This document shows, piece after piece, positions 16,615 through 61,632 of a DNA stretch of 64,000 nt. Position numbers and translations under genes: made by a program. Numbering within the stretch: the first letter of the stretch is position 1; every line of letters starts with the position of its first letter. Source of the DNA: Typha latifolia (lineage: Eukaryota > Streptophyta > Magnoliopsida > Poales > Typhaceae); the NCBI GenBank assembly GCA_019914945.1, contig CM034101.1, positions 10,799,188 to 10,863,187 of the forward strand, written 5' to 3'. Under the pieces are notes generated by a model that saw only the letters and a list, made by a program, of their open reading frames with translations, made no database searches and had not been told where the DNA came from.

Positions 16615-16943
16615 TGATGCAAAATGTGGTGGAGGAAAATGAAGTAGAGAAATTAGAAGGGAAGGAATGGGGTTTCACACCTCCACCCTAAGAAAAGGTT
16701 TCACACCAAAATCCTCGAGAGAACAAATCACATAAACTTTCATTAAGTCCAAAGGAAATATAACGGGTCTATATATAGACCTACAATGGAATTAAGCAAA
16801 AAACACTCTACATAGGAAATAAACAAAAGACACCATAAATAAATAAAAATCAGAACCAAATCCCTATAGGAGGGATCATCAACCGTCGGCGCCTCCTACG
16901 CTGGTACACACGCCATCGCGTCCTATCAGTGATGTCCGCATCA
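16615..16943 (-). repeat. 3' LTR of the CRM-like element
   Basis: 329 bp. It overlaps the last 31 codons of pol (16850-16943). On the minus strand it begins TGATGCGGACATCACTGATA, directly after a purine-rich stretch GGGGAGAA that is itself coding (the PGEN of LPPGENDAD). Confidence 0.95.
16766..16781. promoter_or_regulatory. TATA box inside a perfect 16-bp palindrome
   Basis: GGTCTATATATAGACC is self-complementary and is preserved in both LTRs (here and near 23301-23316). It is the best candidate for the LTR core promoter. Confidence 0.6.
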
Positions 16944-39530: not shown

Positions 39531-42296
39531 CACCCTTCATTAAGCCATACACCATGTGAAGTAGCCTCAAAATAAAAAATGAATTCGGCTTCCATTGTAG
39601 AACTGTCAGTCAAAGTCTGCTTGACACTTCTCCATGATAAAGCTTCATTGGTTATCATAAAAAATATATCCAGATGTTAATTTACATGAATCAACACAAC
39701 TAGTGAAATCAAAATCTGAGTATCTAATCACTTCCAAATTATTTGTTCATCTATACATAAGCATATAGTCTTTAGTTCATCTAATCACTTCCAAATTATT
39801 TGTTCGTCTATATATTACTCCCATTAACCTTCCAGTATATGTATTAATCCATGAGATTTTCAACAAATCGAAATGAAGAAGTCACCTTATGAAATTTAAA
39901 ATATCATTGATAGGATACTTGTTTTACATTGTATATGGATTTCTTTAGCTTACAAATCAAATTCTCACCATCACTAGAGAGGAATCCTTTAGCTAGGACA
40001 TTTTCACATCCATTTGTTGCAACTCAAGGTCAAAATGGGATTCTAATGTCAATATAATTCATAATGAATCTTTCTTAAATACATTTAAAAAAGTCTTTGT
40101 ATAATCGATTTTTTCTTTCTGAGTGAATCCCTTAGCAATGAGTATCCCCTTGTATCTCTTAATATTTCCTAATGAGTCATTCTTAGTCTTAAAGACCCAT
40201 TTATAGCTTATGAATTTTGGACCATTAGGCAACTCAATAAGATCCCAAACTCCATTACTCTTTATGGAACTCATCTCATCTTTCATGGCATTGTATTATA
40301 ATTCAGATTATTTGCAACTTATGGCTTGTCAAAAAGACTCGGTATAAATTTTGGCTCCAATATTATAGTTAGATTCTTGCAAATACACTACATAATTACT
40401 ATGAATTGTTGACCTCTTAATTCTAGTAGATCTTCCTAATGTCATGCTAAATATGAGATTCAATTTGTTGTTCAGAAGTTTCATGCATCTCCTAAATAAC
40501 TTGATATAATAGGATGTGTCAACAACTTGAGGAATTTCAATGATTGATTGTTCAAACCGATTTGTACTTAAGAGGCACTATAAACAATTAACAATCTATC
40601 ACTTGAAGTGGACGGTTGAGACTTTGAATGATAAATATCAGAAACTATATTCCAAATTTGATCACTCTCACTCATCAAGTCATATTCAAAAAACTTTGCA
40701 TTTCTTGATTTGACAATCCTAGTGTTTTGAGATAGATAATAAAATTTGTAACATTTAGACCTTTCGATATATCCAACGATATACTACTAATCATCCTTGG
40801 GTCTAGCTTTTTTTTCTCTAGTGGATTATAGGTCCTTACTTCGGACGGATATCCTCAAATGTAGATATATCGCAAACTCACTTTTCAACCTTTCAATAAT
40901 TCAAATGATGTCTTTGAGATAGCCTTGGTTAGAATTTGATTTAATTTATACATTACCATCTTTAGTGCTTCAGTCCATAAAAATTTAGAAAGATTAGAGC
41001 TGCTAAGCATACTGCGCACCATGTCTAACAATGCTTAATTTCATTTTTTTGCTGATTCGATCAACTAGGCATAGTGTACTAGGCAACTATCTCATGATCT
41101 TGAAGAAACTTAGCAAACAGACTAGGTGCTTATCCATCCTTAGTGTATCTATCATAGTACTTTTCACATCTATCTGATCTCGCAATCTTAATTTGCTTTC
41201 GGCATTGGTTCTCCACGTTAGTCTTAAATATATGTATATATCATGAGTAATCATTAATGGAGATGATGAAGTATCTTTGATCATATGAGGCCATATCTGG
41301 ACTACATATATTAATATGTATGATTTCGAACAAGCTTGAATTTCTATTGGCATCTCTTTTGGACTTGTTAGTATGCTTTCCCTTAATGCAGCCCACATAT
41401 GCCTCAAAATCTAAAATATTAAATATTAAATGCTCATTGATGCACTAATCTCTTAATTCTTTCTATGGAGATGTGTTGTAATCTCTAGTGCCAGAACATA
41501 GAGGAGTCATCATTAATATTACACCATTTAGTGCTAGTATGAACATGAAATGAATTATATGTGACATTATCTTGCAAATCATACTATAAAGACTATTAGA
41601 CAAAATATCATTCTCAACACACAATTAGAATTGTAAAATAAACTAAATGACGTGTTTGAAAAATTAAAGGAATATCTCAACGGTATAAGTCTGGAAATTT
41701 AAATCAAATTTTATAAAAAACGTGAAACATAAAAGGTCATACTTAATTACACAATAAAGTTAACTACTGAAAGTTAATAAACATGTTCCTATAGCCTCCA
41801 CATGTGAGCTCATTTTATTTCTAGATAAGACATTTTGCTCGCTTCCCACTTCCTACTAGCTTTCGTAGGTTTTACAAAATTTTACCTAACCTGCAAAGAG
41901 TTCGCAATATGGATTGTAGATCCAGGGTCAATCCATCAGGTATTAATTTTAATATTAATCATATTAGATTCATAACAAACAAATAAGGTTAGATTACCTT
42001 TATCCTCAAGCTATTTCTGAAATTTGACATATTCTTTTTTCATGTGTCCTTTTTGTTTACATAAGAAACACTTGGCATTTTTTTTAATATCAACTTAGGG
42101 TGGTGTTTTACCCTTCCCCTTTTGATTGTGTTGAGTCTTCCCCTTCCTACAGAATGTAGTCAGCATTGCACTTTCACTTAGCTCCATCACCAACCTACCT
42201 TCTTCTTGAAGTGTACACACATGATCATTAACTTATTGATTGACCATTTGTCCTTATGTGTGTTGTATGAGATCTTGAAAGGCTCGTATTATTGTA
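39531..42296 (-). pseudogene. Copia-2 remnant: gag end to RNase H
   Basis: This continues the copia gag that starts at 55770, resuming at 42296 just beyond the 12.3-kb insertion with FKISYNTHKDKWSIN. Then come a zinc knuckle CFLCKQKGHMKKEY (about 42030-42075, last cysteine lost), protease and integrase remnants with many stops (YNPLEKKKLDPR, about 40830), reverse transcriptase start (SYKWVFKTKND and KGFTQKEKIDYTKTF, 40059-40286) and an RNase H piece (LSWRSVKQTLTDSSTMEAEF, 39570-39640). The catalytic part of reverse transcriptase is largely missing. The 3' end is cut by a reversed gypsy LTR fragment. Confidence 0.8.
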
Positions 42297-42645
42297 TGGT
42301 GGGGACACCACTTTTTGTCACGTTTATTCTCATAAGCACAAAAGGGCTACACCCATGGCCTTTTGGCTTAACGAGGGTTGTGACTAGTCACCTTCTAGGG
42401 CTATTTTTGTCTTTTATCTTTTACTTTATTTGGCCTATATAAAGGCTTGTAATCATCTTTTATGAGTTAATGAATATTTTTGAGAGCTTTTGCCTATTGA
42501 GTGTTTGTTGGTAGATTCCAACGTCGGTGGATTCCGACACCCCGATTGGTGGATTCCGACACTCCGATTGGTGGATTCCATGGGTTTGATTATTTCTCCC
42601 TACATTTTCTTTTCAACTCTACAATCAAGACATTGTTTTACATCA
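42297..42645 (+). repeat. 5' LTR (family D) of the composite
   Basis: 349 bp, TGGTGGGGACACC... to ...TTTTACATCA. It carries a short repeat GATTGGTGGATTCCGACA (about 42517-42580), one copy of which is deleted in the 3' LTR (22 bp). Confidence 0.9.
42436..42442 (+). promoter_or_regulatory. LTR TATA box
   Basis: GGCCTATATAAAGGC, identical in the 3' LTR (54397-54403) and in the inverted LTR. A transcript start some 30 bases downstream is inferred. Confidence 0.65.
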
Positions 42646-42649
42646 ACTT

Positions 42650-42661
42650 TGGTATTAGAGC
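42650..42661 (+). other. Primer-binding site
   Basis: TGGTATTAGAGC four bases after the LTR end, one change from the initiator tRNA-Met type TGGTATCAGAGC. The mirrored copy (about 51295-51304) reads TTTGATACCAAAG on the plus strand. Confidence 0.85.
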
Positions 42662-42910
42662 AGATCGTTTCCTAGTTTATGGACGCTCCACTGCCTGGAT
42701 TTTATGCAGCGCCTCATCTTTTCTTCGTTAGATCAATCACTCCATGAACACCAGATCGCTATGAGATCTGTCGCTCGATAACGTTAGGATCCGGATCCGA
42801 GTTATGCGAGAAGATCACCCTCAACGAGGAAAACAATAAACCATTACCATCATCAAATCTCCACACAAGGAGATAATCACAAGTAAGCTTTATTCAATAG
42901 ATTTTCTTTC

Positions 42911-43430
42911 CCAGTTTTAGATTAAAAAAAGCCTCTCTAAAAAAAACAGAGAGAGAGAAAAAAAAAAAGAAAGAGCTCTCTGAAAAAAAAAAAGAAGAGA
43001 GAAAAAAGAAAGAAAGAAAGAGCTCTCTGAAAAAAAAAAAGAAAAAAAAAGAAAGAAAGAGCTCTCTGAAAAAAAAAGAGAAAAAAAATTCTGAAATTTA
43101 GTTTATTTGTTTCATCTTTATCTTTAATTTTAAATTTCAAAAATTTCAAAATTAATTTTAGAAGATATTTTTTTCTTCTTTTCTTATTTACCTTTCCTTA
43201 ATTTTAGGAAATTAGTTTCTATAATTTTGGAATTAATTTCCATAATTTTGGGGATTAGTTTCCAAAATTTTAGAGATTAGTTTCCATAATTTTAGGGATT
43301 AGTTTCCAAACTTTTAAGGATTAGTTTCCATAATTTTAGGGATTAGTTTCCATAATTTTAGGGATTAGTTTCCACAATTTTAGGGATTAGTTTCCACAAT
43401 TTTTGAAAATTAGTTCCCCTAATTTTTGGA
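42911..43430 (+). repeat. Leader repeats: GAGCTCTCTGAAAA array and 22-bp minisatellite
   Basis: Three to four A-rich units containing AAAGAGCTCTCTGAAAAAA (42911-43090) are followed by about eleven 22-bp units of ATTTTAGGGATTAGTTTCCA (43190-43430). Both arrays are mirrored in the inverted arm. Confidence 0.85.
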
Positions 43431-44585
43431 TAAATACCTATCTTATCTACTTTCCTAACTTAATCCCAACCAACCCAAAACCTAAACACATAACCCACTA
43501 GGCTAAACCTCTCATCATTCCAAAACCCAAAGACCACTAACCAACTAAGCTCACCAGCCTAACCTAGCCCATCTTTTAGCCTTAGTGAATCGGTAGAAAC
43601 CTACCGAAAAATCGACCTGTTTACCTACAATCCAATCCAAACCCATCGTCATCTTCCTCCTCTTTAGCCCCAACCATCACTCACATCCATCATCCCATCT
43701 TCCTATCTTCGTCGATGTTGCCGCCGACCTCCACGGACGATACCACCACCGATTTCCACGGCCCTTGCTCTGCCGTGCCACCATCTTAACCACCACCGCG
43801 CCTCCTGCAACCCTTGCCGCGACCGCCACTACCGCAGCCACCTGCTGCTGCAATTTCTAGCCGCATCCGCCCATCCGCAGCCATCTTTGATGCTATGACC
43901 ACTGCTGCCACTTCCACCTCCCCTACTGTAGCCCATCGTCACCGCCACCGTCGCTCTACTACTGCCGTCGCTGCAGCCCCTACGCGATCCTGCCACTGCA
44001 TCGTCGCAGTCGCAGTCGTCGCTGCCATTCTTGCAGCTCGCTGTCACCATAGCCGCCGCCGCTGTCCCTACCACTATAGCCGTCTTCACCATCACTGTTG
44101 TCGGATTCCGACCACCGTTATCACGACCACCATTTATAGTGGACGTGCGACATTCGGTAACATCCGTCATTTCTTTACTGTTATTTGTTAGTCTTAAAAT
44201 AGCAGATGTCTTTCTGTTGGTGTGGATCATAACCATATTGAGCCTGTTATTGCCTGCTATTGCCTACCGATTTACATTGCTTAATTCATTTGTTTTATTT
44301 CAACAAGCGCTTGAGCCTGATATTGCTTACCTACTTCTTTTTGTTTGTTACAAAAAAAAATTAATATTAACGGTAGAACTAGCTAGGTTAGAGGGAACGT
44401 CTTGACATATCTGCAGTCCCCGACTCAATCTTGGGAGCTTGTACTATTGGTTTGCAATTTTTCTACTGAGTTTGACTAGCTCTTACTAAAAACTTCATAA
44501 GTGGCTGTAGGTTATTCTAGTTATCACTCCCTTATTGTTCGCTGTAATCTCTTAGCTTGCATATCATCATTCATTTATTTCTTCA
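43431..44585 (+). other. Leader of the composite, left arm
   Basis: ACCCAAAACCTAAAC-type DNA, then a C-rich segment (43720-44130) whose frames are low complexity, then a unique leader up to gag. It is mirrored at 49345-50500. No gene recognised. Confidence 0.6.
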
Positions 44586-46815
44586 GTGGTAGAGACACTT
44601 TATATAAACCTTCGTAGTGGTAGGAGAGTCTCTCACTCTTCATCCCAGTCTGTTATGGAACTCAATACCATGAAAGATTTTTATCGATTTTTACAAAAGT
44701 CCATTGAAACCATTACTACTAGATTGGACGACTTCAATGCTCGTCTTGAGGCTATTGAGATGGGTCGTGACCCACATGAGACTAGGAGTGATGTCGGTGC
44801 GTCCAACACGGGTGTCACGCATGCCGCTCCTAATGTCGAGACCTATCGACAGGCTCCATACTACCCTCACCATGAGAGAGGTCCTAAGAGAGAACCCCAT
44901 AGGCAAAATTATTGTGAAGATACATTTGATTTTCATAATAATAGGGGGTTTAGAGGCAATATCGCCTTTAGAGAATCTCAAAACCATGACAATCAAATTA
45001 TAAACAATATTAAGGTGGATGCCCCAACTTTTGACGGTCGCTTAGATCCTGCTGTATTTACTGACTGGCTCCGTGAGATGGACCATTTCTTTGAGTGGTA
45101 TTGATCTACCAGAAAATCGACGCATTAGATTTGCCCAAATAAAACTAGTCGGCCGAGCCAAACTATTTTGGCAAAGTATAGAACAATTATCAGTGCAATG
45201 AAACCAACCTCCCATAATTCATTGGCATGAAATAAAAGAAAAATTAAAAGAAAAATATTTGCCACATTCTCATCTTGGTGACCTTTTGGATCAATGGAAT
45301 AATTTTAAACAAGAAAATAGGCCTGTGAGCGATTATGTCTCTCAATTTGAGGAATATATGCTGATGTGTAGAAGGGGTCCCTCCATGAAACTGCACCGAT
45401 TAATGACCCCCGTCGATGTTACAAATGCAGACAAGTTGGTCATGTAGCCTCAAATTGTCTTAAAAAGGCCCTTTATCTTGGGGAACAGGATGATATTATC
45501 GGGGAAAATGAGCTCGATGAACAAGTTTATGAACCTGACCCTGATGATGTCCAAGATAGTGACGAAAATCGTGATTATGGAGACCATACTGTTGGTGTCA
45601 TTCGTTGCGCTTTGACGCAACCCTAGGAGATCGATGATTGGCGAAGGAATGCAATATTCCACACTTACATTAAATGTGGGACTAAAGATTGCAAAGTAAT
45701 CATCGACAGTGGGAGTTGTATTAACACCGTCTCTTCTAACGTTATATCTCGCCTGGCATTATAGTCTACACCTCATCCGAATCCTTATAAGGTATCTTGG
45801 GTAAATGATTCTTCCATTGCTATAAATGAGAGAAGCCTCGTTCCTATCACTTTCCTTTCTTATAAGAAAAATGTGTGGTGTGACATTGTGCTGATGGATG
45901 TAGGGCATATCATTTTAGGCCGCCTTGGTTATTTGATCATGATGTAACTATTTTTGGGCGTTCCAACTCGTGCTCTTTCAATTTTGAAGGTAAAAAGATT
46001 AAGATAAATCCTATGCACTGTAAAATAATTAATAAAGATAACAAGAAAATTGCTCCAAGTAAAAAGGGTTTGCACATAATAAATTCTAAAGAATTTGAAA
46101 AGGAAGCAAACCAAGGCTCTATTGTGTTTGCCTTGGTGGCTCGTGAAGTTGGGAGCACTACCCTCACTCGATCATCCGACGAATCTGCTCCTATACTAAA
46201 TGAGTTTCAAGATGTGTTTCTGAATGATCTGCCGAACCAATTGCCTCCTTTACGCGATATCCAACATGCAATTGACTTTGTCCCTAGAGCGTCTCTCCCA
46301 AACTTGCCACACTATCGAATGAGCCCCAAAGAACATGCTGAACTGCAACATTAGGTAAATGAACTTCTTATGAAGGGTTTCATCCGTGAGAGCCTAAGTC
46401 CATGTGCTGTGCCTGCCTTGCTCACGCCAAAGAAGGATGGGTCCTAGCGTATGTGTGTCGATAGTCGAGCCATCAATAGAATAACAGTCAAATATCATTT
46501 TCCCATTCCAAAACGTGATGACATGCTTGATATGATGGCGGGAGCTTCAATTTTCTCTAAGATCGATCTTAAAAGTGGTTATCACCAAATCCAAATTCGC
46601 CCAAGCGATGAATGGAAAACTGCTTTTAAGACGAAAGACGGATTGTATAAATGGTTAGTAATGTCTTTCGGTTTATCAAATGCCCTAAGCACTTTCATGC
46701 GTGTTATGACACAAGTGCTTCACCCATTTATGGGCAAATTTCTTGTGGTGTATTTTGACAACATTTTGATTTATAGTCGATCAAAACAACTTCATTTGGA
46801 CCATTTGCGTCAAGT
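44586..46815 (+). pseudogene. Gag-protease-RT of the left palindrome arm
   Basis: Gag starts at 44586 (MVETLYINLRSGRRV) with the capsid motif IINNIKVDAPTFDGRLDP. A frameshift lies near 45104, and a deletion of about 230 bp after EEYMLMC removes the linker; the CCHC knuckle (CYKCRQVGHVASNC) follows in another frame. Protease DSGSCIN lies at about 45705. Reverse transcriptase runs from [15 protein letters not shown] (46230) through [15 protein letters not shown] and [11 protein letters not shown] to [11 protein letters not shown] (46752-46785). The catalytic motif is YFDN instead of YFDD. Several stops (for example TAG at 46447) are present. It ends at LDHLRQ where the palindrome turns. Confidence 0.85.
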
Positions 46816-46841
46816 CTGTCTTCTGTTACCTGTGCCTGATC
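46816..46841 (+). other. Spacer at the palindrome centre, copied from integrase DNA
   Basis: 26 bp between the arms (CAAGT 46811-46815 pairs with ACTTG 46842-46846). The run TCTGTTACCTGTGCCTGATC, plus AC beyond, matches the integrase-coding stretch at 53133-53154 with one change and in the same orientation. Confidence 0.85.
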
Positions 46842-49344
46842 ACTTGATGCAAATGGTCCAAATGAAGCTCTTTTGATCGACTATAAATCAAAATGTCATC
46901 AAAATACACTATAAGAAATTTGCCCATGAATGGGCGAAGCACTTGTGTCATAACACGCATGAAAGTGTTTGGGGGCATTTGATAAACCGAAAGCTATTAC
47001 CAACCATTCATACAACCTGTCTTTCGTCTTAAAAGTAGTTTCCAATCATCGCCTAGGCAAATTCGGATTTGATGATAACAACTTTTAAAATCTATCTTAG
47101 AGAAAATTGAAGCTCCCGCCATCATATCAAGCATGTCATCAAGTTTTGGAATAGGAAAATGATATTTGACTGTTATTCTATTAATGGCTCGACTATCGAC
47201 ACACATACGCCAGGACCCATTCTTCTTTAGCGTGAGCAAGGCAGGCACGGCACAAGGACTTAGGCTCTCGCAGATGAAACCCTTCATAAGAAGTTCATTT
47301 ACCTAATGTTGCAGTTCAACATACTTTTTAGGACTCATTCGATAGTTTGGCAAGTTTGGGATAGACGCTCTAGGGACAAAGTCAATTGCATGTTGGATAT
47401 CGCGTAAAGGAGGCAATTGGTCCAGCAGATCATCCGGAAACACATCTTGAAACTCATTTAGTATAGGAGCAGATTCGTCGGATGATGGAGTGAGGGTACT
47501 GCTCCCAACTTCACGAGCCACTAAGGCAAACACAATAGAGCCTTGGTTTGCTTCCTTTTCAAATTTTCTAGAATTTATTATGTGCAAACCCTTTTTACTT
47601 GGAGCAATTTTCTTGTTATCTTTATTAATTATTTTAGGGCGCATAAGATTTATCTTAATCTTTTTACCTTCAAAATTGAAAGAGCACGAGTTGGAATGCC
47701 CAAAAATAGTTACATCATGATCAAATAACCAAGAGCGGCCTAAAATGATATGCCCTACATCTATCGGCACAATATCACACCACACATTTTCCTCATAAGA
47801 AAGGAAAGTGATAGGAACGAGGCATCTCTCATTTATAGCAATGGAAGAATCAGTTACCCAAGATATCTTATAAGGTTTCGGATGAGGTGTAGACTTTAAC
47901 ACCAGGCGAGATATAACGTTAGAAGAGACGACGTTAATACAACTCCCACTGTCGATGATTACTTTGCAATCTTTAGTCCCACATTTAATGTAAGTGTGGA
48001 ATATTGCATTCCTTCGCCAATCATCGATCTCCCGGGGTTGCGTCAAAGCGCAACGAACGACACCAACAGTATGGTCTCCATAATCACGATCTTCATCACT
48101 ATCTTGGACATCGTTAGGGTCAGGTTCATAAACTTGTTCATCGAGCTCATATTTTTCGATAATGTCATCCTATTCCCCAAGATAAAGGGCCTTTCGAGGA
48201 CAATTTGAGGCTACATGACCAACTTGTTTGCATTTGTAACATCGAGGGGGGTCATTAACAAGTGCAGTTTCATGGAGGGGCCCCTTCCCTTTGTCAGGTT
48301 GGGCAGGTGCGGCAGTTTGGGTAGTTCTGGTAGGTACCAATGGTGGTGGAGCTTTTACGCCAGTAGGTGTGTAACTAGGAGGGGTGCGCCCAATTGGTCG
48401 CCTAGGCAATTGTTGCCTATTAACCATCTCGTAGTTCAACGCAAGAGTGTAAGCTTAGTCCAAGGAGGTAACTTCCCGGAAAACTAACTCTCTTTGAATG
48501 TCGTCGTTAAGGCCATGCCTAAAATGACTCAGTGTCATCCTCTCATCCTCCACAACATTACACCTCAGCATATATTCCTCAAATTGGGAGACATAATCGC
48601 TCACAGGCCTATTTCCTTGTTTAAAATTATTCCATTGATCCAAAAGGTCACCAAGATAAGAATGTGGCAAATATTTTTCTTTCAATTTTTCTTTTATTTC
48701 ATGCCAATGAATTATGGGAGGTTGGTTTCGTCGCACTAATAGTTGTTCTATACTTTGCCAAAACAGTTTGGCTTGGCCGACTAGTTTCATTTGGGCAAAT
48801 CTAACGCATCGGTTTTCTGCTAGATCATACCACTCAAAGAAATGGTCCATCTCACGGAGCCAGTCAGTAAATACAGTAGGATCTAAGCGACCGTCAATAG
48901 TTGGGGCATCCACCTTAATATTTTTTATAATTTGATTGTCATGGTTTTGAGATTCTCTAAAGGCGACATTGCCTCTAAACCCCCTGTTATTATGAAAATC
49001 AAATGTATCTTCACGATAATTTTGCCTATGGGGTTCTCTCTTAGGACCTCTCTCATGGTGAGGGTAGTATGGAGCTTGTCGATGGGTATCGACATTAGGA
49101 GTGATACGCGTGGCACCCGTGTTGGATGCACCGACATCACTCCTGGTCTCATGTTGGTCACGACCCATCTCAATAGCCTCAAGACGAGCATTGAAGTCGT
49201 CCAATCTGGTAGTAATGGTTTCAATGGACTCTTGTAAAAATCGACAAAAAAATCTTCCATGGTATTGGGTTCCATAATAGATTGGGATGAAAGGTGAAAG
49301 ACTCTCCAACCACTACGAAGGTTCATATAAAGTGTCTCTACCAC
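46842..49344 (-). pseudogene. Gag-protease-RT of the inverted palindrome arm
   Basis: A reversed copy of the left arm with independent damage. Gag (49344 down to about 48170) is longer and better preserved: capsid, an RTTQTAAPAQPDKGKGP linker and knuckle CYKCKQVGHVASNC, with one stop near 48455 (after EVTSLD). Protease DSGSCIN lies in 47303-48046. Reverse transcriptase follows to about 46850 and keeps YFDD (about 46880-46895), although [15 protein letters not shown] and a frameshift near 47000 show decay. The gag/PR region reads almost continuously, so this arm is closer to the ancestral state than the left arm. Confidence 0.85.
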
Positions 49345-50514
49345 TAAAGAAATAAATGCAATAAATAAATGATGATATGCAAGCTAAGAGATCACAGCGA
49401 ATAATAAGGGAGTAATAACTAGAATAACCTACAGCCACTTATGAAGTTTTCAGTAAGAGCCAGTCAGACTCAGCAGAAAAATTGCAAACCAATAGTATAA
49501 GCTCCTGAGATCGAGACGGGGACTGTAGATATGTCAAGACTTTCCCTCTAACCTAACTAGGTCTACCGTTAATATTAATTGTTTTTTTGTAACAAACAAA
49601 AAGAAGTAGGTAGGCAATATCAGGCTCAAGCGCTTGTTAAATAAAATAAATGAATTAAGCAATGTAAATCGGTTGGCAATAGCAGGTAAGAACAGGCTCA
49701 ATATAATTATGATCCACACCAACAGAAAGACAGTTGCTATTTTAAGACTAACAAATAATAGTAAAGAAATGATAGATTTTACCGAATGCCGCACGTCCAC
49801 TGTAGATGGTGGTCATGATAACGGTGGCCGGAATCTGAGAATAGCGACGGTGGCGAAGCTGCGGTGGTAGGGACAGCGACGGCGGCTGCGGTGGCAGGGA
49901 GCTGCAAGAATGGCAGCGACGACTGTGACGAAGCAGTGGCAGGACCGCGTAGGGGCTGCAACGACGATAGTAGTAGAGCGACGGCCGCGGTGAAGATGGG
50001 CTGCGGTAGGGGCGGTGGAAGTGGCAGCAGTGGTCGTAGCAGCAAAGATGGTTGCGGATGGGCGGCTACGGCTGGAAATTGCAACAGCGGGTGGCTGCGG
50101 TAGTGGCGGCCCCGGCAAGGGCTGTAGGGGCAGCGGTGGTGGTGAAGATGGTGGCAGAGCAAGGGCTGTGGAAATCGGCGGTGGCGTCGTCCGTGGAGGT
50201 CGGCGGCAGCATCGGCGAACAGAGGAAGATGAGATGATAGATGTGAGTGACGACTGGGACTAAAGAGGAGGAAGATGATGATGGGTTTGGATTGGGTTGT
50301 AGGTAAATAGGTCGATTTTTGGGTTGGTTTCTACTGATTCACTAAGGCTAAAACATGGGCTAGGTTAGGCTGATGGGCTTAGTTGGTTAGTGGTGTTTGG
50401 GTTTTGGAATGACGAGAGGTTTAGGCTAGTGGGTTAATGGGTTTAGGTTTTGGGTTGGTTGGGATTAAGTTAGGAAAGTAGATAAGATAGGTATTTATCC
50501 TAAAATTAGGGGAA

Positions 50515-51030
50515 CTAATTTTTAAAAATTATGGAAACTAATCCCGAAAATTGTGGAAACTAAACCCTAAAATTATGAAAAATCCCTAAAATTTTGGAAA
50601 CTAATCTCTAAAATTTTGGAAACTAATCATTAAAATTTTAGAAACCAATCCCTAAAATTATGGAAACTAATCCCTAAAATTATGGATACTAATCCCTAAA
50701 ATTATGGAAACTAATCTCTAAAATTTTGGAAACTAAGCCCCAAAATTATGGAAATTAATTCCAAAATTATAGAAACTAATTTCCTAAAATTAAGGAAAGG
50801 TAAATAAGAAAAGAAGACAAAAATATCTTCTAAACTTAATTTCGAAATTTTCAAAATTTAAAATTAAAGTTAAAGATGAAACAAATAAACTGAATTTCAG
50901 AATTTTTTTTTTTCTCTCTTTTTTTTCAGAGAGCCCTTTCTTTCTTTTTCTTTTTTTTTCTCTCTTTTTTTTTTTCAGAGAGCTCTTTCTATTTTTTTTT
51001 CTCTCTCTCTTTTTTAGAGAGCTTCTTTTT
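50515..51030 (-). repeat. Mirrored leader arrays in the inverted arm
   Basis: 22-bp units TGGAAACTAATCCCTAAAAT (50515-50790) and TTTTTCAGAGAGCTCTTTCT units (50900-51030), the reverse complements of 43190-43430 and 42911-43090. Confidence 0.85.
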
Positions 51031-51307
51031 TTTTAATCTAAAACGGGGAAAGAAAATCTATTGAATAAAGCTTACTTGTTATTATCTCCTTGTGTGGAGA
51101 TTTGATGATGGTAATGGTTTATTGTTTTCCTCCTTGAGAGTGATCTCCTCGCATAAATCGGATCCGGATCCTAATCGGGTGATGGATCTCGTAGCGATTT
51201 GGTGTTCGTGGAGCGATTGATCTGACGAAGAAAAGATGAGGCGCTGCGTAGAATCCAGGTGGTGGAGCATCCATAAACTAGGAAACGATCTGCTTTGATA
51301 CCAAAGC

Positions 51308-51620
51308 TGATGTAAAACAACGTCTTGATTGTAGAGTTGAGAAGAAAAAGTAGGGAGAAATAATCAAACACGTGGAATCCACCAATCGGAGTGTCGGAAT
51401 CCACCGTCGTTAGAATCCACCAACAAATATTCAATAGGCAAAAGCTCTCAAAATATTCATTAACACATAAAAGATGATTATGAGCCTTTATATAGGCCAA
51501 ATAAAGTAAAAGACAAAAGACGAAAATAGCCCTAGAAGGTGACTAGTCAGAACCCTCGTTAAGCCAAAGGGCCATGGGTGCAGCCCTCCTGTGCTTATGA
51601 GAATAAATGTGACAAAAAGT
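51308..51620 (-). repeat. Inverted family-D LTR, cut about 13 bp short of its U3 end
   Basis: Plus strand TGATGTAAAACAACG... to ...GTGACAAAAAGT. It matches the outer LTRs in reverse but lacks the terminal TGGTGGGGACACC. rRNA-gene DNA follows at once. Confidence 0.9.
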
Positions 51621-51761
51621 CAAAATCCACTAAGGAGTGTGTAACAAGTCACCTACTGAATCAACTAGCCCCGAAAATGAATGGCGCTAAAGCGCGCGAC
51701 CCACACCCGGCCATCGGGGCGAGCGCCATGCCCCGATGAGTAGGAGGGTGCGGCGGCCGCC
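51621..51761 (+). rRNA. 26S rRNA gene fragment (partial)
   Basis: CACTAAGGAGTGTGTAACAA, CTGAATCAACTAGCCCCGAA and GCGCGACCCACACCCGGCC are signature stretches of plant large-subunit rRNA, here about 140 bp with a few substitutions. Its last 50 bp (CATCGGGGCGAGCGCCATG...) are repeated at 52367. Confidence 0.85.
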
Positions 51762-51974
51762 AGGAGAAAACTAGCCAATGGGGCTAATTTTTGGTTGGAC
51801 ATACGTTGCAGCAATGCAGCGGGCGCCCGTCGCATGCCCGACGGGCGCCCGTCGTGCAGACAGCGCCTGGGCTCGGCCTGTGGGGGGAAAAACTAGCCAG
51901 CAGGCCTATTTTTTGGGCTCATGGCCGAGGCCCTCAAAACGTAACGCCCCACAGACCCTTTGAACCCCCCGGCC
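51762..51974. other. Unassigned GC-rich filler within the rDNA insert
   Basis: It contains AACTAGCC...TTTTTGG twice (51777 and 51889) and GGGCGCCCGTCG...CGACGGGCGCCCGTCG, a strong inverted repeat. It could be rDNA spacer; not recognised. Confidence 0.4.
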
Positions 51975-52038
51975 CGTCAGAGAGCGCGACCACGCGCGAG
52001 CTCCGAAAGGGAATTGGGTTAAGATCCCCGAGCCGGGA
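51975..52038 (+). rRNA. Second 26S rRNA fragment
   Basis: GAGCTCCGAAAGGGAATTGG and GTTAAGATCCCCGAGCCGGG match the large-subunit segment around the GAATCGGGTTAA motif. About 60 bp. Confidence 0.7.
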
Positions 52039-52039
52039 G

Positions 52040-52148
52040 TGATTTAATGAGCCATTTGTAGTTTCACAGTCTGAATTAGTTCATACTTACACATGCATGG
52101 CTTAATCTTTGAGACAAGCATATGACTACTGGCAGGATCAACCAGGTA
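52040..52148 (-). rRNA. 18S rRNA gene 5' end (reversed)
   Basis: The minus strand reads TACCTGGTTGATCCTGCCAG through CATATGCTTGTCTC to GGCTCATTAAATCA, the first 109 bases of plant 18S rRNA with few changes (for example TACAAATGG instead of TGCGAATGG). Confidence 0.95.
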
Positions 52149-52184
52149 GATGTCCTCTCCGACGTCGAAATCGCGAGGCGCCCT

Positions 52185-52366
52185 TCCCCCGCTAGGAGGG
52201 GAGGGACCGTTGACAGCCCGACAGTCGTCGGCCGGCACGCGGCGACCCGCTCTCGCCGTGCGAGGCAGCTCGAGTAGTCTGCCGATAGCTGACGGGTTCA
52301 GGGTCGGGACCTCGAGCCCAGCCATCAGAGCCAATCCTTTTCTTGAAGTTACGGATCCATTTTGCC
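52185..52366 (-). rRNA. Third 26S rRNA fragment (reversed)
   Basis: The minus strand reads GGCAAAATGGATCCGTAACT, AAAAGGATTGGCTCTGA, CTGGGCTCGAGG and CGGCGAGAGCGGGTCGC, a large-subunit segment 3' of the other pieces. The 36 bp between this and the 18S piece (52149-52184) could be either 26S or the spacer upstream of 18S. Confidence 0.8.
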
Positions 52367-52491
52367 GGGGCGAGCGCCATGCCTCGATGAGTAGGAGGGC
52401 GTGGCGGCCGCCGCAAAACTCGGGGCGCGAGCCGGCGGAGCGGCCGTCGGTGCGGATCTTGGTGGTAGTAGCAAATATTCAAATGAGAACT
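52367..52491 (+). rRNA. Fourth 26S rRNA fragment
   Basis: GGGGCGAGCGCCATGCCTCG to AAATATTCAAATGAGAACT. It overlaps the same 26S interval as 51714-51761 and extends it by about 75 bp (GCAAAACTCGGGGCGCGAGC, ATCTTGGTGGTAGTAGCAAA). Confidence 0.9.
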
Positions 52492-52499
52492 AAATTAGG

Positions 52500-54347
52500 C
52501 TAAGAAAAAGTACTCCACTTACGATAAGGAATTTTATGCGGTTATTTAAGCTTTACGCTATTGGCACCATTATTTACTTCCGCATGAATTCGTGCTTTTT
52601 TCCGACCACGAAGCTCTTCGATTCCTAAATTCTCAGAAGAAACTAAATTTGAGACATGCTCGTTGGATCGAGTTCTTACAGGAGTATACCTTTGTACTCA
52701 AACATAGAGCTGAGGTTGAGAATAAGACGGCTGATGCGCTTAACCGAAGGGTTAACCTTCTGTCTACCATTAGCATCAAAGTCACTGGGTTTGACAAAAT
52801 GAAGGAAGATTATACAACTTGTCCGAACTTTGGCAAAATCGCTCTCACTTTGCTGACTGATCTGAACTTAGCTTTGGACAGTTATTCCCTCCAAGACGGT
52901 TACCTGTTTAAGGCTAACAAGCTTTGTGTCCCCCATACGTCCGTGTGTGACTTCCTTGTTTGTGAGATCCATGCCGGTGGCCTATCGGGTCATTTTGGAC
53001 GTGATAAAACCATTGAGGAATTGGAGCGCAATTCTACTGGCCAAGTCTCAAACGTGACGTCGCAAAATTAGTTGGTCAATGTAGGGCTTGTCAGTTAGCA
53101 AAACACAGAAAACAAAACACTGGACTTTACACTCTGTTACCCGTGCCTGATCACCCGTGGCAGGATCTTAATATGGATTTTGTCCTGGGCTTGCCTCGCA
53201 CATTTAAAAAACATGATTCAATCCTCGTGGTTGTGGATCGCTTCTCTAAGATTGCCCATTTTATTCCTTGTGCTAAGACCTTTGATGTGTCACAAGTGGC
53301 CAAATTGTACTTTGCCCATATCGTCAAGTTATATGGTCTTCCAAAAAACTATTGTTTCCGACCGGGATGTTCGCTTTATGAGCTATTTTTGGAAAACCTT
53401 ATGGCACATGGCTGGCACAAAATTAAGATTTTCTACTGCCTATCATCCTCAAACCGATGGTCAAACTGAGGTTGTTAATCGTAGTCATGGAAATCTTTTG
53501 TGCTGTCTCGTGAGTAATCATAACAAAAACTGGGATGCCATTCTTCCCTTAGCCCAATTTGCATATAATAGCTCCATTAATAAGTCTATTGGCATGAGCC
53601 CATTTGAAGTTGTTCATAGTTTTAAAGCACGCAAACCTCTAGATTTGTTGCCTATGTCATCTCATTCTAAAGTCTCTGAGTCTGCTGAAACATTTGCACA
53701 TCATGTTCATTCTTTGCATTAAGAGATCACTAAGTGAATTGAGGCGAGTAATCACTAGTATAAAATACATGCCGACTTGCACAAACGTGCGAAGGAGTTC
53801 GATGTTGGAGATCATGTTATGATTCGTCTCAGACCCGAACGATTCCCTTCGGGAGCTGTTTGGAAGTTGTATGCTCGTAGTGCAGGATCTTTCCATGTTC
53901 TGAAACGTGTCGGTGCTACTGCTTATGTCATTGAGGATCTAGTAGCCTACCATCCCACCTATGCACATCCCCACCGAACCCTGCTACATCTACTACCCTT
54001 CCAGACATCCCTGTTGTGCCACCTACCACTTCTCCTTTTCCATCCACATCACAAGAAAAGATAGACGCTATTTTAGATGATCAAATAATATCTACTGCAG
54101 AAGGAGAGGTTCACCGTTTTCTCATTCAATGGCACAGGCGACCAGAGTCTGAATGTACGTGGATCACTCGTGAGGAGTTACAGCAGCTTGACCCTGACAT
54201 TTTGGAATACTATCAGAGCCATTCAACTGGGTCGAGTTTCTTCCACCTCGAGAGAGTTGGTGGGGACACCACTTTTTGTCACGTTTATTCTCGTAAGCAC
54301 AAAAGGGCTGCACCCATGGCCCTTTGGCTTAACGAGTGTTGTGACTA
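52500..54347 (+). pseudogene. RNase H, integrase and chromodomain of the composite
   Basis: It resumes in RNase H (KKKYSTYDKEFY in shifted frame, then FSDHEALRFLNSQKKLNLRH at about 52600). Integrase carries PDHPWQDLNMDFVLGLPRT (53146), VVVDRFSKIAHFIPC, VSDRDVRF and QTDGQTEVVNRSHGNLL with two frameshifts near 53350-53460. A chromodomain follows (KIDAILDDQIISTAEGEVHR, FLIQWHRRPESECTW, 54058-54180). The frame runs through STGSSFFHLERVGGDTTF into the 3' LTR and stops at about 54348. Damaged, but domain order is normal. Confidence 0.85.
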
Positions 54348-54584
54348 GTCACCTTCTAGGGCTATTTTTATTTTTTATCTTTTACTTTATTTGGCCTATA
54401 TAAAGGCTTGTAATCATCTTTTATGAGTTAATGAATATTTTTGAGAGCTTTTGCCTATTGAGTATTTGTTGGTGGATTCAAACGTCGATGGATTCCAACA
54501 CCCCGATTGGTGGATTCTACGGGTTTGATTATTTCTCCCTACTTTTTCTTCTCAACTCTACAATCAAGAAATTATTCTACATCA
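54258..54584 (+). repeat. 3' LTR (family D) of the composite
   Basis: 327 bp; about 6% different from the 5' LTR by hand count, plus the loss of one 22-bp internal repeat. It overlaps the last 30 codons of pol. Confidence 0.9.
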
Positions 54585-55775
54585 TTGTAGAAGTGTGTTC
54601 AGGATATAGTACACTAGAAATATTTTGGACATCTCAATCTCTACCTTCTTGAGTTAAGCGGCAATGTCTCCATTTGCATGATGTGCTCATGCACACTTTT
54701 AACATTGGTGAGCCTTAGAGAAGAGAACTTCATAATTAGAGTACTTGCGAAAGCCTTTTCAGAAGTGACGAACTAGTCATCTATGGCCTTAAACAAGTCT
54801 TAGACATTTTCATGTTTGATCCACTAAACCACGAATACTAGTAGAGATTTTGGTCTTCAATCCGAATCAAGTTAGGTCGGATCGCATCATGAGGACATTG
54901 GGCTCGATGATCAAGTTTATTATCTTTTAATTGATTCATATTTATCTTTTGTGTAAGCCCTTAAGACAAGTCTAATTAAGTCATATAAGTCACTAAGAGA
55001 AGTCTAATTAAGTAATGTAAGCTACTAAGGCAAGTCCTAGTTTGAGTCGTATAAACCTTTAAGGCTAGACTAAGTAGAACTTATTGTACTCAACCTCTAT
55101 ATATAGAGGGGTTGGGCTTCATTATTTAAGCATCCAAGCATCTAATAAAGAATTAAGAATTATATTTTAGTCTTGAGTTTAACTTAAGAGTAAGAGTAAA
55201 ATAATCTAGGAGTCGAAGTAAATTAATCATAGCCATTTATTTTGCTAGGAGTAGATCTAACTTAGAACCCTAATTTTATCTCCAAGGCATAGCGACCGTC
55301 ATCTCCACGAGTCGCCCTACTTTACAGTCGTCCACCACCATTTCTCGACAACCGCCGCAACGTTGAATAATTACCGATATATCCAATTATGACTTATCCA
55401 TTATTTTATTTATATTTTTTTATCCTGACCTCCGATTTACGTAAAACTAAAACCATTAGAACCCTAACTTCCGAGTCTACCATCATGTAAATTTTCATTT
55501 TTTTGTGTCTAAATTGATCATTCATAACAATTTTAATAAACATTGCGCTTAGACAATTGGATCACTTCCACGTTCATAAAACGCAATGTCTTCTAAAGAG
55601 CTAGTAGTAGTGATTGCATGTGGTGTATTCTTCTTAATGAAATTATCAATGTCCATCCACCCTAGGTGAAGGAGAACTCTCTCCTTCCATATTTTATAGT
55701 TATCCCCTTTCAATTCAGGAATATCACAATAGATATCAGATAAATTCTCAGATTGTGAAGCTGCATTCAATATTA
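54585..55775 (-). pseudogene. Copia-2 gag, 5' part
   Basis: Gag starts at 55770 with IPELKGDNYKIWKERVLLHL and GWMDID, loses frame near 55600, is interrupted by an LTR (54852-55529), then resumes (LFKAID, STLIMKFSSLRLTNVKSVHE HIMQME, about 54650-54800). It runs to YFLVHYILNT-like sequence at the insertion site of the composite and continues at 42296 on the other side. Confidence 0.8.
54852..55529 (+). mobile_element. Solo LTR of family C-type inside copia-2 gag
   Basis: It shares AAGTCATATAAG repeats, CTATATATAGAGGGGTTGGG, CTAGGAGT.GAAGTAAATTAA and CGTCCACCACCAT with the solo LTR at 5001-5761 and ends CATTCATAACA. ATTTT flanks it on both sides (54847-54851 and 55530-55534), and gag (MFIKT...) continues across. 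The first base pair of the LTR (expected TG) looks altered. Confidence 0.75.
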
Positions 55776-55924: not shown

Positions 55925-57876
55925 TCAAACTATCATAAGTGCTAAATTCTGAAGAATAGGAGCAGAAGCACCATGAGCAACCTACCACATGTTTGAATCA
56001 AACTCATTTCTATCTGCTATTGAATCATACTCAGCAAAACTTTTGGTTGATGTGGAGAAACTAGTATACTCTTGGTATGCCATTTTTCGTTCTTCTGCAT
56101 TTGGAAATAACCTTTTTAAGCATTTGTTTCTCATATTAGAAATTTCCAAATCCTTATGCGGTGGTAGACGATTTGGATCTTCTTGAATCCATGATGAGCT
56201 ATAATACCTATTAACATAATCATATAATTAGTAAACAATAGCAATGAAAGAACAATAAAATTTTTAATCATAAGAAAGAGGACTATAGAAATTAAATTAA
56301 CCTTGGATTCAAAGAATGTGCTAAGCAATGTAACGGTGTATTGCTTTCATCCCATCTATCCACTAGGATCTTGTGCACCACTGAATAAAAAATAGATTCC
56401 TCGCCTTCTTTCTTGTTTTCATGCATAAATATGACTGTCTTCACCATTTCAATCATTGTATCCCACATTTCATATATCAAATATAAGCATGTTTTATCTG
56501 TGTCTGCAACCCGTTGCATACTGTATATAGGCTCCGTGAAAGCAAGTATATATTCAATTTTATCCCACCAAACGTCATCAAGGACTTTATCTTTGACAAA
56601 CTGTGCTTTGCCAATATCATCTTCCCTATAAGAACTCCATTTATCATTGATTACCATTGATTGAAGACCCTTCTTGATCTTTCTAAATTTTTTCAACATT
56701 ATAATCACCGAAGCAAAGCAAGTCTACACAATAGCAAGCAATTTTAAGTTGACAAATTCATTAAAAATAGCCAACCTCATTGAATGCTGCATGATGAAAT
56801 TTTTTATGCACATTACATCCCCTGCAATTACTGAAATCCAGCTACACTCATCAAACACAATCTCATTTGCCTCAGTGTTTTTTGCTGCACATATGTTCTT
56901 CAAAGCTAGGTTGAGAGTGTGAACTACACATTGAGTCCAAAAAATGTGAGAAAATCTTGCTTCAAGAAGCATCCCTGCTGCCTTACAAACAGGTGCATTA
57001 TCTATAACCACTTGGACTACATTATGAGGTCCAACCTCTTCAATGATTTTAATGATCAAATTAGAGATAAAAAATCTGTCTTTATATTCTCCTTCACAAT
57101 TCATAGCTCTCAAGAACATAGGCCCACTCTTAGTCACCACTAAAAAATTTATAAACGGTCTCCTCTGTGCATTAGTCCAACCATCACATACAATACTCAG
57201 CCCTTTCTCTCCCCATGTGCTTCTAATAGGGTTTAGCAATATTTCAATATTTGCTCTCTCTTGTTGAAGTAGTGTAGTTTTCAACATATTGTAGCCTAGG
57301 GACACAAATCCAGAAATATTATTATTTGCTGCAAATGGAAAGGCTCTAACATAGTAAGGGTTTCTTGTCAGATAAAAAGGCAACCCAGTAGAATAAAACA
57401 TTCTTGCAATCTCACAATATAATTGATTACGAGCACCATAATTAAATGACTTCTCAATAGGTGTCATTCTTGTTGCTCTTTTTTTTTCTTGATGTCCCTC
57501 CCATATCAAAACCTACACCTCCTACTAAGCTACTAGAAGATGCCGCTTGTCCAAATTTTAGCAAAGGAATTTGTTTAGGCATAGAATTTTTAATTCTCAA
57601 CTCGGCAATATCAACAACCCTTTTCATTTCCATAACATGTTCACTACTCACTTTTGGACAACCTCTAATTTCATGCCCACTAATTTTCAGCAAATGAGCC
57701 TTTACTCTATAATATGATCCCTTGTAGACTTGTTGACAATAATTGCATCTAAAATTATGATTTCCTCCACCTTCTCCCAATTTCTCAATCTTAGTAATAT
57801 ATCTCCACAAGGGAGCATTATCATCCATAGAAGATGCAAAATTTTGACTAGAATCAGGATTATTTTCAGTATTCAT
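55925..57876 (-). pseudogene. hAT-superfamily transposase (BED finger, DUF659)
   Basis: A cut-and-paste DNA transposase of the plant BED/DUF659 type, read 57876 to 55925. It starts MNTENNPDSSQ and has a BED-like finger (CNYCQQVYKGSYYRVKAHLL...GC). A one-base frameshift in an A9 run at about 57480 separates residues up to MGGTSRKKK from ATRMTPIEKSFNY. DUF659 (GLSIVCDGWTNAQRRPFINF, VVIDNAPVCKAAG, CVVHTLNLALK) follows, then a stop near 56724 in a place where relatives have Glu. The frame goes on with FASVIIMLKKFRKI and AQFVKDKVLDDVWW to HSLNPR, a 94-bp intron (56208-56301, GT-AG), and YYSSSWIQEDPNRLPPHKD to WWVAHGASAPILQ. The C-terminal dimerisation region is missing. Terminal inverted repeats were not found. 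Confidence 0.85.
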
Positions 57877-59112: not shown

Positions 59113-60715
59113 TTAATGACTTCCTCTTTTATGACTATGCTTCATTATGTCCACAACGAATTGATCAAAATTCTTCTGTGAAGACCCATCCGGAGTGAGT
59201 GCACTCTCCATGACTCGCCTCACCTCTTCCACTTCCTTCCTCGCCTCGTCTCCTTCTACTCCTCTCATCAGACTAACTATCTTCTCTGATACTTTTTCTC
59301 TGCTGAGGCTGTTGATCTCTCCGATGGCGACCCCGATCCTCCAGTCCCGGACTAACAACTTCTGGTTCGTGAACTGATCGGTGAGCAGCGGGAAGCACAG
59401 CATCGGGACTCCGCACCACACGCTCTCCAGTATCGAGTTCCACCCGCAGTGCGTCAAGAACCCTCCGGCCGACGGGTGCGATAAAACCTCTATTTGGCAA
59501 CACCACGGCACGACCATCCCCCTCCCCCGACTTTCCTCTAAGAATCCCCTGGGCAACGGCTCGGCCTCGTCGGAACTCACGACGTCCGGACGTAGCACCC
59601 AAATAAAGTTCACCTCGCTTTTTAACACACCGTAAGCTATCTCCTTTAAATCTCTCTTGCTGACATGAGCATAGCTACCGAAAGAAATGTACAAGACTGA
59701 GGTAGCTGGCTTTGAGTCGAGCCACTGCGAGCAGTCGGACTCGGCCCAGAGGCTCGTCGCCACGGTGCTGCGGGCGAAGCCGCGGGGGAATATCGGGCCG
59801 ACGGCGTAGAACGGCTTCGTGGATTGGAGGATGGAGATGGTGTCGGACTCGAGCTCTTGGACGGTGTTGCATAGGATGTAGTCGGCTTCCTTGGCCTCTT
59901 CGAATGCCTTGAAAATTATCTGATGAACCACGGAGGATGTGTTCGTTTCTTGGAGGTATGACATGAGCTCGGTTGATTCGATTGCAGGGACTCCAGGTAT
60001 GTAGGTTATGGTGTCTTTCCGGTTCTCTACGACGCACGGAAGTTAATTGATCATGTAAAAATTCAATCCAATATATATGAATATATGATGGAAAGTTAAT
60101 TGTGTACACTTCTTTACAAGAAAAGAATATCATATTTCTACTTCAGTAACAATTAATGACGGATAGTTTCCTCTTTCCATCTCACGAGCTATCGACAGAA
60201 AACAAAAACGAAAAAAAGGAAAAAAAGCTATCAACGGAGCAATACGTGCCTAGAAGTGGCGAAGCCACGTACGTGTAGACAAGAAAGGACTGGCCCCAGG
60301 GCTTGAAAAGTAATTCAATTCTTCATTAAATTATGGAAATATTTTGTAGAATTATTTGTTGTATCACATATTTATTAAGTAACACAACAACTCCCTCGCT
60401 GATTGGTTGGCCAATTTTGAAATTATGTTTTTTAAACACGAGGAAGAGGAATTTAATGAGCTCCCAGTACTACTATAAGTTCTCTTCTGCTCTTCTTTAA
60501 GATTTATATATAAAGCACTAACTACCTTCTAAAAATAAAATCCATCTCCAATTTATTTACTCACCCGCAGCTCTAAAAACATCAATATTTATATTCACGA
60601 TAGTTTTTATATTTTTTTTATATTCTAACATAATCTTAGTGGCTAAAGCTCCCTAAATTATATATGTACGTAGCTAGATATCAACATGTGTTTATGTTGA
60701 ATTCTCAAAAAAATA

Positions 60716-60760
<45 letters not shown>

Positions 60761-61632
60761 AGGTGCAGTCTATATATTGTTGTTAGAGTGGGAATCGGGT
60801 CCGACTAATCGGATTAGGGTCGAGTGATCATGATAATACAAAAAAGAATACGTAATGTTTATTAATCAGATTACACAAGTTAACTCATTTACAATCTGAC
60901 CTCATTAAACTAAACTCAAACTTATTTAAAAATTATGTTAACTCATCCATATATCGGGTCACATCAATTTTTACCACTCCCGATTGATTGACAGTTCTTT
61001 AAAACATTTTCTCAAAGTTTTACAGTCTAACTGATCATATAAACGTACGTGCATATCTGTGTACGCGTATGAGCATGTATGTAGATGCAAGAAACTTGAT
61101 CAACCATACCTTCGGAAGCGAAGTGGCCATTCTTGATGAGGAGATCCATATGATAGTAAAGCGTGAAGATAAGCGCTGGCTCGGTCCAAAATGACACATA
61201 TGGTACCCCAACCTTCTTGGCAATCGTCGACGGCCAAACAAAGAACGTATCGGCTACGAGGCAGGTCACCGGCGGGTCAGCTTTCGCCACTATCCGGCGC
61301 ACGAGCTCGTCGACATGCGCCGATAGCACGTGGAGCAATGCGAACATGAACTGGTCATGGTTGAGGGAGCGGTCGAAGGCGACTGGCAGGCCGTCGCTGA
61401 CGAGCTCGTAGCGGATGTCGAGGCCCGACTCGCGTGCGCCGGAGAATATATCGTCGCGAGAGGAGCCGCTGGCGAGCGAGGTCTGATGGTGGATGGTTTC
61501 GGTGTTCACGAAGGTGACGGCAAAGCCACGGCCGGCGAGATTCACGGCTAGGTGGACGGCGGGGATGATGTGGCCTTGGAGTGGGTAGGGGATGACCACG
61601 GCGTGGGGCTTCATGTGACCTTCTTGCACCAC
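59113..61632 (-). CDS. UGT86A: UDP-glycosyltransferase, UGT86A-like, two exons
   Basis: A family-1 glycosyltransferase of the cytosol that moves a sugar, usually glucose, from UDP-sugar to small molecules; the acceptor cannot be read from sequence. Exon 1 61632-61110 (523 nt) and exon 2 60026-59113 (914 nt) join in phase 1 (GAAG|GTATGG ... GTAG|AGAACC) to give 478 residues, a normal family length. N-terminal HAVVIPYPLQGHIIPAVHLA has catalytic His21, and LVADTFF has the partner Asp128. The C-terminal PSPG signature covers 349-392 (WCCQIEVLSHPSAGGFLTHC to LLTDQ) with Trp at position 22 and final Gln, as in UDP-glucose users. FVNTETIHHQ, SLNHDQF and IPGVPAI are typical of UGT86A1/A2. Start: Met1 and Met7 are both possible; Met1 is the first in frame. 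No stop or frameshift. Exon 1 is GC-rich at third positions. It appears functional despite its repeat-filled surroundings. Confidence 0.92.
60027..61109 (-). other. Intron of the UGT gene
   Basis: 1083 bp, GT-AG. It contains (TA)n at about 60722-60758, an ATATTCTAACA tail like the TRIM at 825-1110 (about 60600-60633), and GGGTCCGACTAATCGG-type repeat DNA around 60790. Confidence 0.85.

Follow-up and report, generated by a model that had tools for sequence, protein, structure and literature searches.

A Ty3/gypsy copy of Typha latifolia with an internal palindrome and rDNA pieces, possibly built on rearranged cDNA at about the time of its insertion

The window analysed here is a stretch of 64,000 nucleotides of Typha latifolia DNA (C3:10799188-10863187), and the genome searched for related sequences comprised 214 Mb in 62 contigs. 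At 42297-54584 the window contains a 12.3-kb Ty3/gypsy unit, with outer long terminal repeats (LTRs) that are in direct orientation in a repeat analysis of the window. Inside it the 5' half of the element is present twice, as the two arms of a palindrome, followed by pieces of ribosomal DNA (rDNA) and then by the 3' half. The unit is one aberrant, dead copy of a family that has dozens of copies. The evidence presented here suggests that the composite was built at about the time of its chromosomal insertion, and we tentatively favour, at somewhat less than even confidence, a reading in which inverted copying and rDNA patching took place on unintegrated complementary DNA (cDNA), before or during integration. 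The copy is real and old and its combination of features is unusual, yet it is composed of known processes. The order of the steps, and their precedence over integration, are what we infer from features that can be read directly, namely the anatomy, the target-site duplication (TSD), the overlaps at three joins, the divergences and the tree positions. The unit and its target site are made up as follows:

42292-42296, plus strand: left TSD, TTGTA (flank reading; empty paralogous sites)
42297-42645, plus strand: outer 5' LTR (repeat analysis, LTR divergence)
42646-46821, plus strand: arm 1, with a leader containing 22-bp tandem repeats, gag, protease (PR) and reverse transcriptase (RT; RVT_1) (repeat analysis, copy comparison, domain search)
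42650-42661, plus strand: TGGTATTAGAGC, resembling a primer-binding site (PBS), directly after the 5' LTR
46822-46843, plus strand: 22-nt sense scrap of the integrase (INT) region, like 53133-53154, at the palindrome centre (intact-copy comparison)
46842-51307, minus strand: arm 2, with inverted RT, PR, gag (Retrotrans_gag) and leader (repeat analysis, domain search)
51308-51620, minus strand: inner inverted LTR, without the last 13 nt of the U3 tip (repeat analysis, intact-copy comparison)
51621-51761, plus strand: 25S rDNA piece (RF02543, 87.7 bits)
51763-51972, plus strand: sub-repeat of the rDNA intergenic spacer (IGS), 94% to contig C52
51973-52039, strand unassigned: piece that is probably rDNA, for which no separate match was found
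52040-52223, minus strand: 5' end of 18S (52040-52148) with the adjoining 5' external transcribed spacer (rDNA comparison)
52224-52366, minus strand: 25S rDNA piece, large subunit (LSU) model 1915-2060 (37.8 bits, under the gathering score of 50)
52366-52491, plus strand: 25S rDNA piece, LSU model about 1360-1490 (34.1 bits, under the gathering score of 50), with AACT common to the RNase H side
52488-54257, plus strand: 3' half, from RNase H and integrase up to the 3' LTR (intact-copy comparison, domain search)
54258-54584, plus strand: outer 3' LTR (repeat analysis, LTR divergence)
54585-54589, plus strand: right TSD, TTGTA (flank reading, paralogous flanks)

Complementarity between the arms (42297-46821 and 46842-51620) is 88-96% for most blocks, with a value of 78% for one purine-rich block. 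The preliminary description of this DNA had the 5' half occurring twice head to head; the inverted duplication stands and the orientation is to be corrected, as the arms lie tail-to-tail with their RT ends facing and their LTRs outward. The centre is no bare turn, since the 22-nt integrase-region scrap lies between the arms. Arm 2 begins at the homologue of 46815, 6 nt before the stop of arm 1 at 46821. About 271 bp of gag are deleted from arm 1 at 45370/45371 and retained in arm 2 (48288-48558). The tandem 22-bp repeats of the leader are found in both arms, at 43171-43447 and 50474-50818.

Some 443-445 nt of the RT-RNase H region of intact copies are missing, counted from the homologue of 46821 to that of 52488. 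Overlap was readable at three joins: 0 nt between arm 1 and the scrap (46821/46822), 2 nt between the scrap and arm 2 (AC, the last two bases of the scrap being common to arm 2), and 4 nt between rDNA and RNase H (AACT, 52488-52491); the LTR/25S join and the joins within the rDNA are hidden by the masking of coding rDNA in the contig compared. Several templated pieces, readable joins with 0, 2 and 4 nt in common and a loss of about 445 nt agree with break-repair filler, for which overlaps of 0-5 nt are expected. There is no complete inner element with a TSD of its own, only one inner LTR with its tip missing and rDNA beside it.

That rDNA pieces lie inside the unit, as claimed earlier from the sequence, is upheld by LSU, small subunit and IGS matches within 51621-52491, one of them being spacer and not rRNA gene. 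The rDNA totals about 0.87 kb and its pieces come from both strands. In the two weak 25S pieces (37.8 and 34.1 bits) the matched segments are still recognisable. An rRNA scan of the whole window at gathering thresholds reported nothing, and no Pol I start motif was found in the sequence searched for it (L050).

The LTRs begin with TG and end with CA and the unit is bounded by a perfect 5-bp duplication, as expected of a Ty3/gypsy LTR element; TGGTATTAGAGC is presumably a PBS of the tRNA-Met type. Elsewhere in the genome the left flank is matched at 18 places, each accompanied by a same-strand match to the right flank within about 75 nt, and the right flank is matched 20 times, two of these matches being pieces of one place on C12. 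At 10 of the 18 places the left and right alignments have 4-5 nt in common, which is expected of a single copy of the duplication; at the remaining eight, one of the alignments does not reach the join or part of the sequence is absent. By these empty paralogous places the insertion is a clean one, in the order host, duplication, composite, duplication and host, in agreement with the direct outer LTRs and the TTGTA on both sides that had been noted from the sequence at the outset. The gag of the flanking sequence, on the minus strand, resembles copia gag by eye only. The order of pol, PR-RT-RNase H-INT as read from other family copies, is likewise that of Ty3/gypsy elements. RVT_1 scored 84.9 bits, over its cut-off, and RT_RNaseH 24.0 bits, slightly below its cut-off of 24.8; PR and INT were named by eye, with no Pfam match for either among the pieces tested. 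The longest frame in 42297-54584 is 284 aa, and the intact coding of an autonomous copy is not present.

We propose that DNA of the 5' half halted in RT at 46821 and would there have acquired the 22 nt of integrase region. The DNA end would then have turned 6 nt back and been extended by copying of the 5' half in inverted orientation from linear unintegrated cDNA of the same source, either the same molecule or one of its siblings within the particle. Copying would have ended at the end of the template molecule, 13 nt from the U3 tip, after which the free end may have been patched via about six rDNA pieces to RNase H in the 3' half, with about 445 nt skipped. Integrase would finally have acted on the outer ends of the two outer LTRs, which are normal, and generated the duplication of TTGTA. 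We favour cDNA as the template because the TSD surrounds the whole unit and because arm 2 ends 13 nt from the LTR tip. That stop makes a chromosomal template less fitting, since copying would then be expected to run into the host element. The near-symmetrical turn points to copying that reversed direction and not to the capture of an unrelated fragment, while end joining in the nucleus is suggested by the rDNA patch. A second family copy on contig C11, which has sister arms (99/99) and inverted LTRs at both ends, supports the same reading. If the composite did precede integration, grossly rearranged cDNA can still be cleanly inserted and inherited.

The earlier impression that palindrome and insertion may be of about the same age is supported by the Kimura two-parameter (K2P) distances, which are 0.061 between the outer LTRs and 0.064 between the arms over gag, PR and RT (128 differences in 2098 sites), an arm/LTR ratio of 1.07 (bootstrap 95% interval 0.69-1.83). 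The inner LTR stands at 0.071 from the 5' LTR and 0.085 from the 3' LTR, and the odd-one-out site counts of the three window LTRs (11, 13 and 7) describe a near star with no strongly favoured pair. In the gag+PR+RT tree (28 rows, 2100 columns) the arms are sisters at 97/93, although the bootstrap had not settled, joined by a common branch of 0.0045, their own ends measuring 0.032 and 0.034; with the leader added (23 rows, 3539 columns) they are sisters at 95/93. When states shared by few rows were compared, the arm pair ranked 1/253 in PR, 3/210 in RT and 6/231 in gag. An LTR tree made without the downstream duplicate of the 3' half (see below) and without an aberrant row (L037) placed the three window LTRs together at 91/89, with no pairing rejected. 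The sister placement of the arms is more telling than their equal divergence, and rests mainly on PR and RT.

Since the arms match the outer LTRs in divergence, the data argue against both a late self-copy and a misassembly. A self-copy made in place long after insertion, by fold-back or break-induced replication, would also produce sister arms, but it is highly improbable given this divergence, a distance from the 5' LTR that is no smaller for the inner LTR (0.071) than for the 3' LTR (0.061), and a common branch of the arms that is so short in relation to their ends. To an assembly artefact we assign an equally low probability; the structure is read from the assembly, but the arms differ at 6%, the 3' half and target junction recur in duplicate from C3:10870346 onwards, and the rDNA spacer piece is 94% identical to its best match in the compared contig.

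The main competitor to copying on unintegrated cDNA is an early patch in place, in which a normal copy at TTGTA was soon broken between RT and RNase H and end joining captured an inverted sibling cDNA, from LTR to RT, together with rDNA. We regard this as possible though unlikely. A filler of many pieces from both strands, with 0-4 nt at the three readable joins, would suit such a patch, and the end of arm 2 close to the LTR tip suits a captured cDNA end. Ty cDNA and rDNA are among the sequences inserted at yeast breaks, where several pieces are sometimes joined (PMC10802722), and break ends form inverted foldback inserts (PMC11724301). However, a near-symmetrical turn is unexpected from independently broken cDNA, and the divergences would force the event early in the life of the copy. 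For a break in an already integrated copy, the interval of the dating ratio (0.69-1.83) spans both the time before and the time soon after integration. The preliminary description had offered chimeric cDNA or repair with ectopic inserts as its two explanations; with the repair placed early, they are still the two best readings, and they are not fully separable.

Several points weigh against copying on cDNA before integration. Two coincidences count in its favour, arm 2 ending within 13 nt of the LTR tip (a chance of roughly 0.2-0.3% if its end is uniform) and the near-symmetrical turn with 6 nt between the ends (roughly 0.2% for an independent fragment), but both figures were calculated only after the data had been inspected. 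The origin of the rDNA from both strands, with one piece of spacer, resembles nuclear break repair more than copying within a particle. The dating, with an interval that reaches down to 0.69, does not part the time before integration from that soon after. The leader alone pairs the arms at just 75/19, and by few-row shared states the arm pair takes rank 11/21 for the mid-leader and a low rank for the LTR. When the downstream duplicate and L037 are included in the LTR tree, the 5' LTR, the 3' LTR and the duplicate group at 92/79 with the inner LTR outside. By raw distance in gag, PR and RT, each arm has at least one other copy that is nearer to it than its partner arm, with a tie in gag for arm 1. 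Other family copies differ from one another by a mean of 5.4-7.5% in the coding pieces and 7.0% in the LTR; since the family is thus star-like, with copies about 5-7% apart, equal divergence alone neither proves one event nor excludes a nested sibling. Finally, the sister support of the arms comes from a comparison with 26 other rows, four of them being arms of two other palindromes, as against 86 first-look candidates.

The gag search scored 40 places, corresponding to 37 loci, among these 86 candidates. At three of the 37 loci gag was present in both orientations within some 6 kb: the window, C6:9535-9541k and C11:3552-3558k. The C11 copy (C11:3549300-3563000) has its inverted LTRs at the two outer ends, each with the last two bases altered or missing, and a 32-nt LTR scrap at its turn; no target duplication was detected there. 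Its arms are sisters at 100/99 (gag+PR+RT) and 85/89 (leader) as well as in the combined data, with K of 0.040 for the arms and 0.049 for the LTR pair. Sister arms are therefore found in two of the three tail-to-tail loci. It is conceivable, though rather unlikely, that the family repeatedly yields tail-to-tail cDNA, the nascent plus strand switching to a plus strand of the same source and running to the U3 end; the C11 copy would then be the plain product, and the window copy one that was rescued via rDNA to a 3' half and inserted by integrase. If this is true, palindromic cDNA would be a regular, heritable by-product of LTR-element replication.

The C6 copy (C6:9531800-9544000) has the tail-to-tail arrangement of the window copy and belongs to the same family. 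It has a complete inverted LTR whose U3 tip is joined exactly and directly to INT (CACCA followed by GGAGA), and neither an rDNA match nor an outer target duplication was found. A clade of its two arms was rejected on the leader (approximately unbiased test, p 5.8e-6) and on the combined data (p 1.3e-4), though not on gag+PR+RT alone (p 0.277), and the arms group in PR alone. It is most simply explained as a nested insertion plus a deletion. A comparable origin for the window copy would have a reverse family member inserted between RT and RNase H, with later deletions removing its 3' half and both junctions and leaving scrap and rDNA as filler. The family appears to nest in itself in reverse, as at C6, a loop deletion between inverted repeats could yield a near-symmetrical centre, and one LTR tree does place the inner LTR outside the outer pair. 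Against this, both of the supposed insertion junctions are gone, so that at least two later events would be needed, and the gag-RT trees give sister arms. We consider such nesting distinctly unlikely for the window copy.

One further locus, C3:8724.9-8729.4k, was tried as a composite and rejected: between its RT and RNase H lie only other repeats and no family sequence, so a long gap between RT and RNase H is by itself no palindrome. At C1:13759102-13766391 and C3:7198736-7204158 (search coordinates), LTR, gag, RT or RNase H pieces of the family occur in mixed orientations, and C8:6272-6280k was flagged as a candidate composite from coordinates alone. In another family copy (L033, C7:8451100-8459800) one LTR measures 326 bp and the other 364 bp, two different length classes, and the flanks resemble a duplication with one mismatch (CATAT/CCTAT). 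The unequal LTRs in spite of duplication-like flanks suggest a recombinant of two RNAs.

Some 18.6 kb downstream of the 3' target junction, the 3' half and the right flank of the unit are duplicated, with their joint TTGTA kept, from C3:10870346 to beyond 10872683 (in the stretch C3:10870050-10872700). The element part of the duplicate is sister to the 3' half of the window copy (100/100 for the integrase piece, 95/80 for the LTR). Its left end corresponds to 52525, which is 37 nt away from the join of rDNA and RNase H, and adjoins sequence that reads like another gypsy RT. Considered as a candidate for an older version of the copy without the interruption, it thus starts short of the composite junctions. 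Over 53382-54584 it differs from the window at 49 of 1184 sites (4.1%), against 6.1% for the arms (Fisher p 0.019, or 0.007 without three gap-adjacent changes), and so looks younger than the palindrome. The flank of the duplicate differs at only 4 of 317 sites (1.3%) as compared with the 4.1% of its element part (Fisher p 0.01).

The suggestion that the composite itself might be mobile was not borne out. Outer LTRs, a PBS-like site and a target duplication are all present, but the centre junction, searched as a 40-nt pattern with up to 3 mismatches, occurs once in the whole genome. No match spanning the rDNA junctions was found beyond the window itself among the 40 of 257 candidates scored, in a search that is weak for the 25S pieces because coding rDNA was masked. 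With its internal junctions thus seen together at one place only, movement of the composite as a unit is extremely unlikely.

Olsen and Swanstrom reportedly described, in 1985, defective retroviral DNA with large inverted duplications that arose from strand switching. Those molecules are like the present copy in having an inverted duplicate of part of the element within one DNA; the copy described here differs in that it derives from a plant gypsy element, is an old fossil within a genome, and has both an rDNA patch and a clean target duplication. Among eight unique break inserts in growing wild-type yeast, three were Ty and two were rDNA (PMC10802722). Since Ty cDNA and rDNA are both donors at yeast breaks, their combination is natural under copying on unintegrated cDNA and under an early patch alike. 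The yeast inserts share with the window copy these two donor classes and the joining of several pieces, whereas here the insert lies inside an element of the same family, includes a 4.8-kb inverted half and is part of a TSD-bounded unit. Foldback templated insertions likewise consist of an inverted copy of the flank with short overlaps at the joins, but in yeast they measure 2 to about 150 bp (PMC11724301), as against about 4.8 kb here, ending near the cDNA tip. Two copies of an LTR element in opposite orientation are also found at the junction of a chromosome fusion with inverted Ty1 copies (PMC3102749); that event was of chromosome scale and was attributed there to breakage-fusion-bridge cycles, unlike the clean insertion with a TSD in the window. 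No palindromic, TSD-bounded LTR copy with rDNA was found in the literature searched, where most subscription papers lay outside coverage.

The window copy can be regarded as a genomic fossil in which inverted cDNA copying, rDNA capture and an integrase-type insertion are readable, and roughly datable, in one place. The long inverted repeats that were left behind are plausible sources of hairpin RNA and plausible fragile sites. Elsewhere in the window, a further gypsy-like element with long open frames of 817 and 449 aa lies on the minus strand at 16850-21678. Also on the minus strand, as judged by eye, are frames that look like those of a hAT-type transposase containing a BED-like finger (56292-57876) and pieces of a plant UDP-glycosyltransferase gene (59113-61632).

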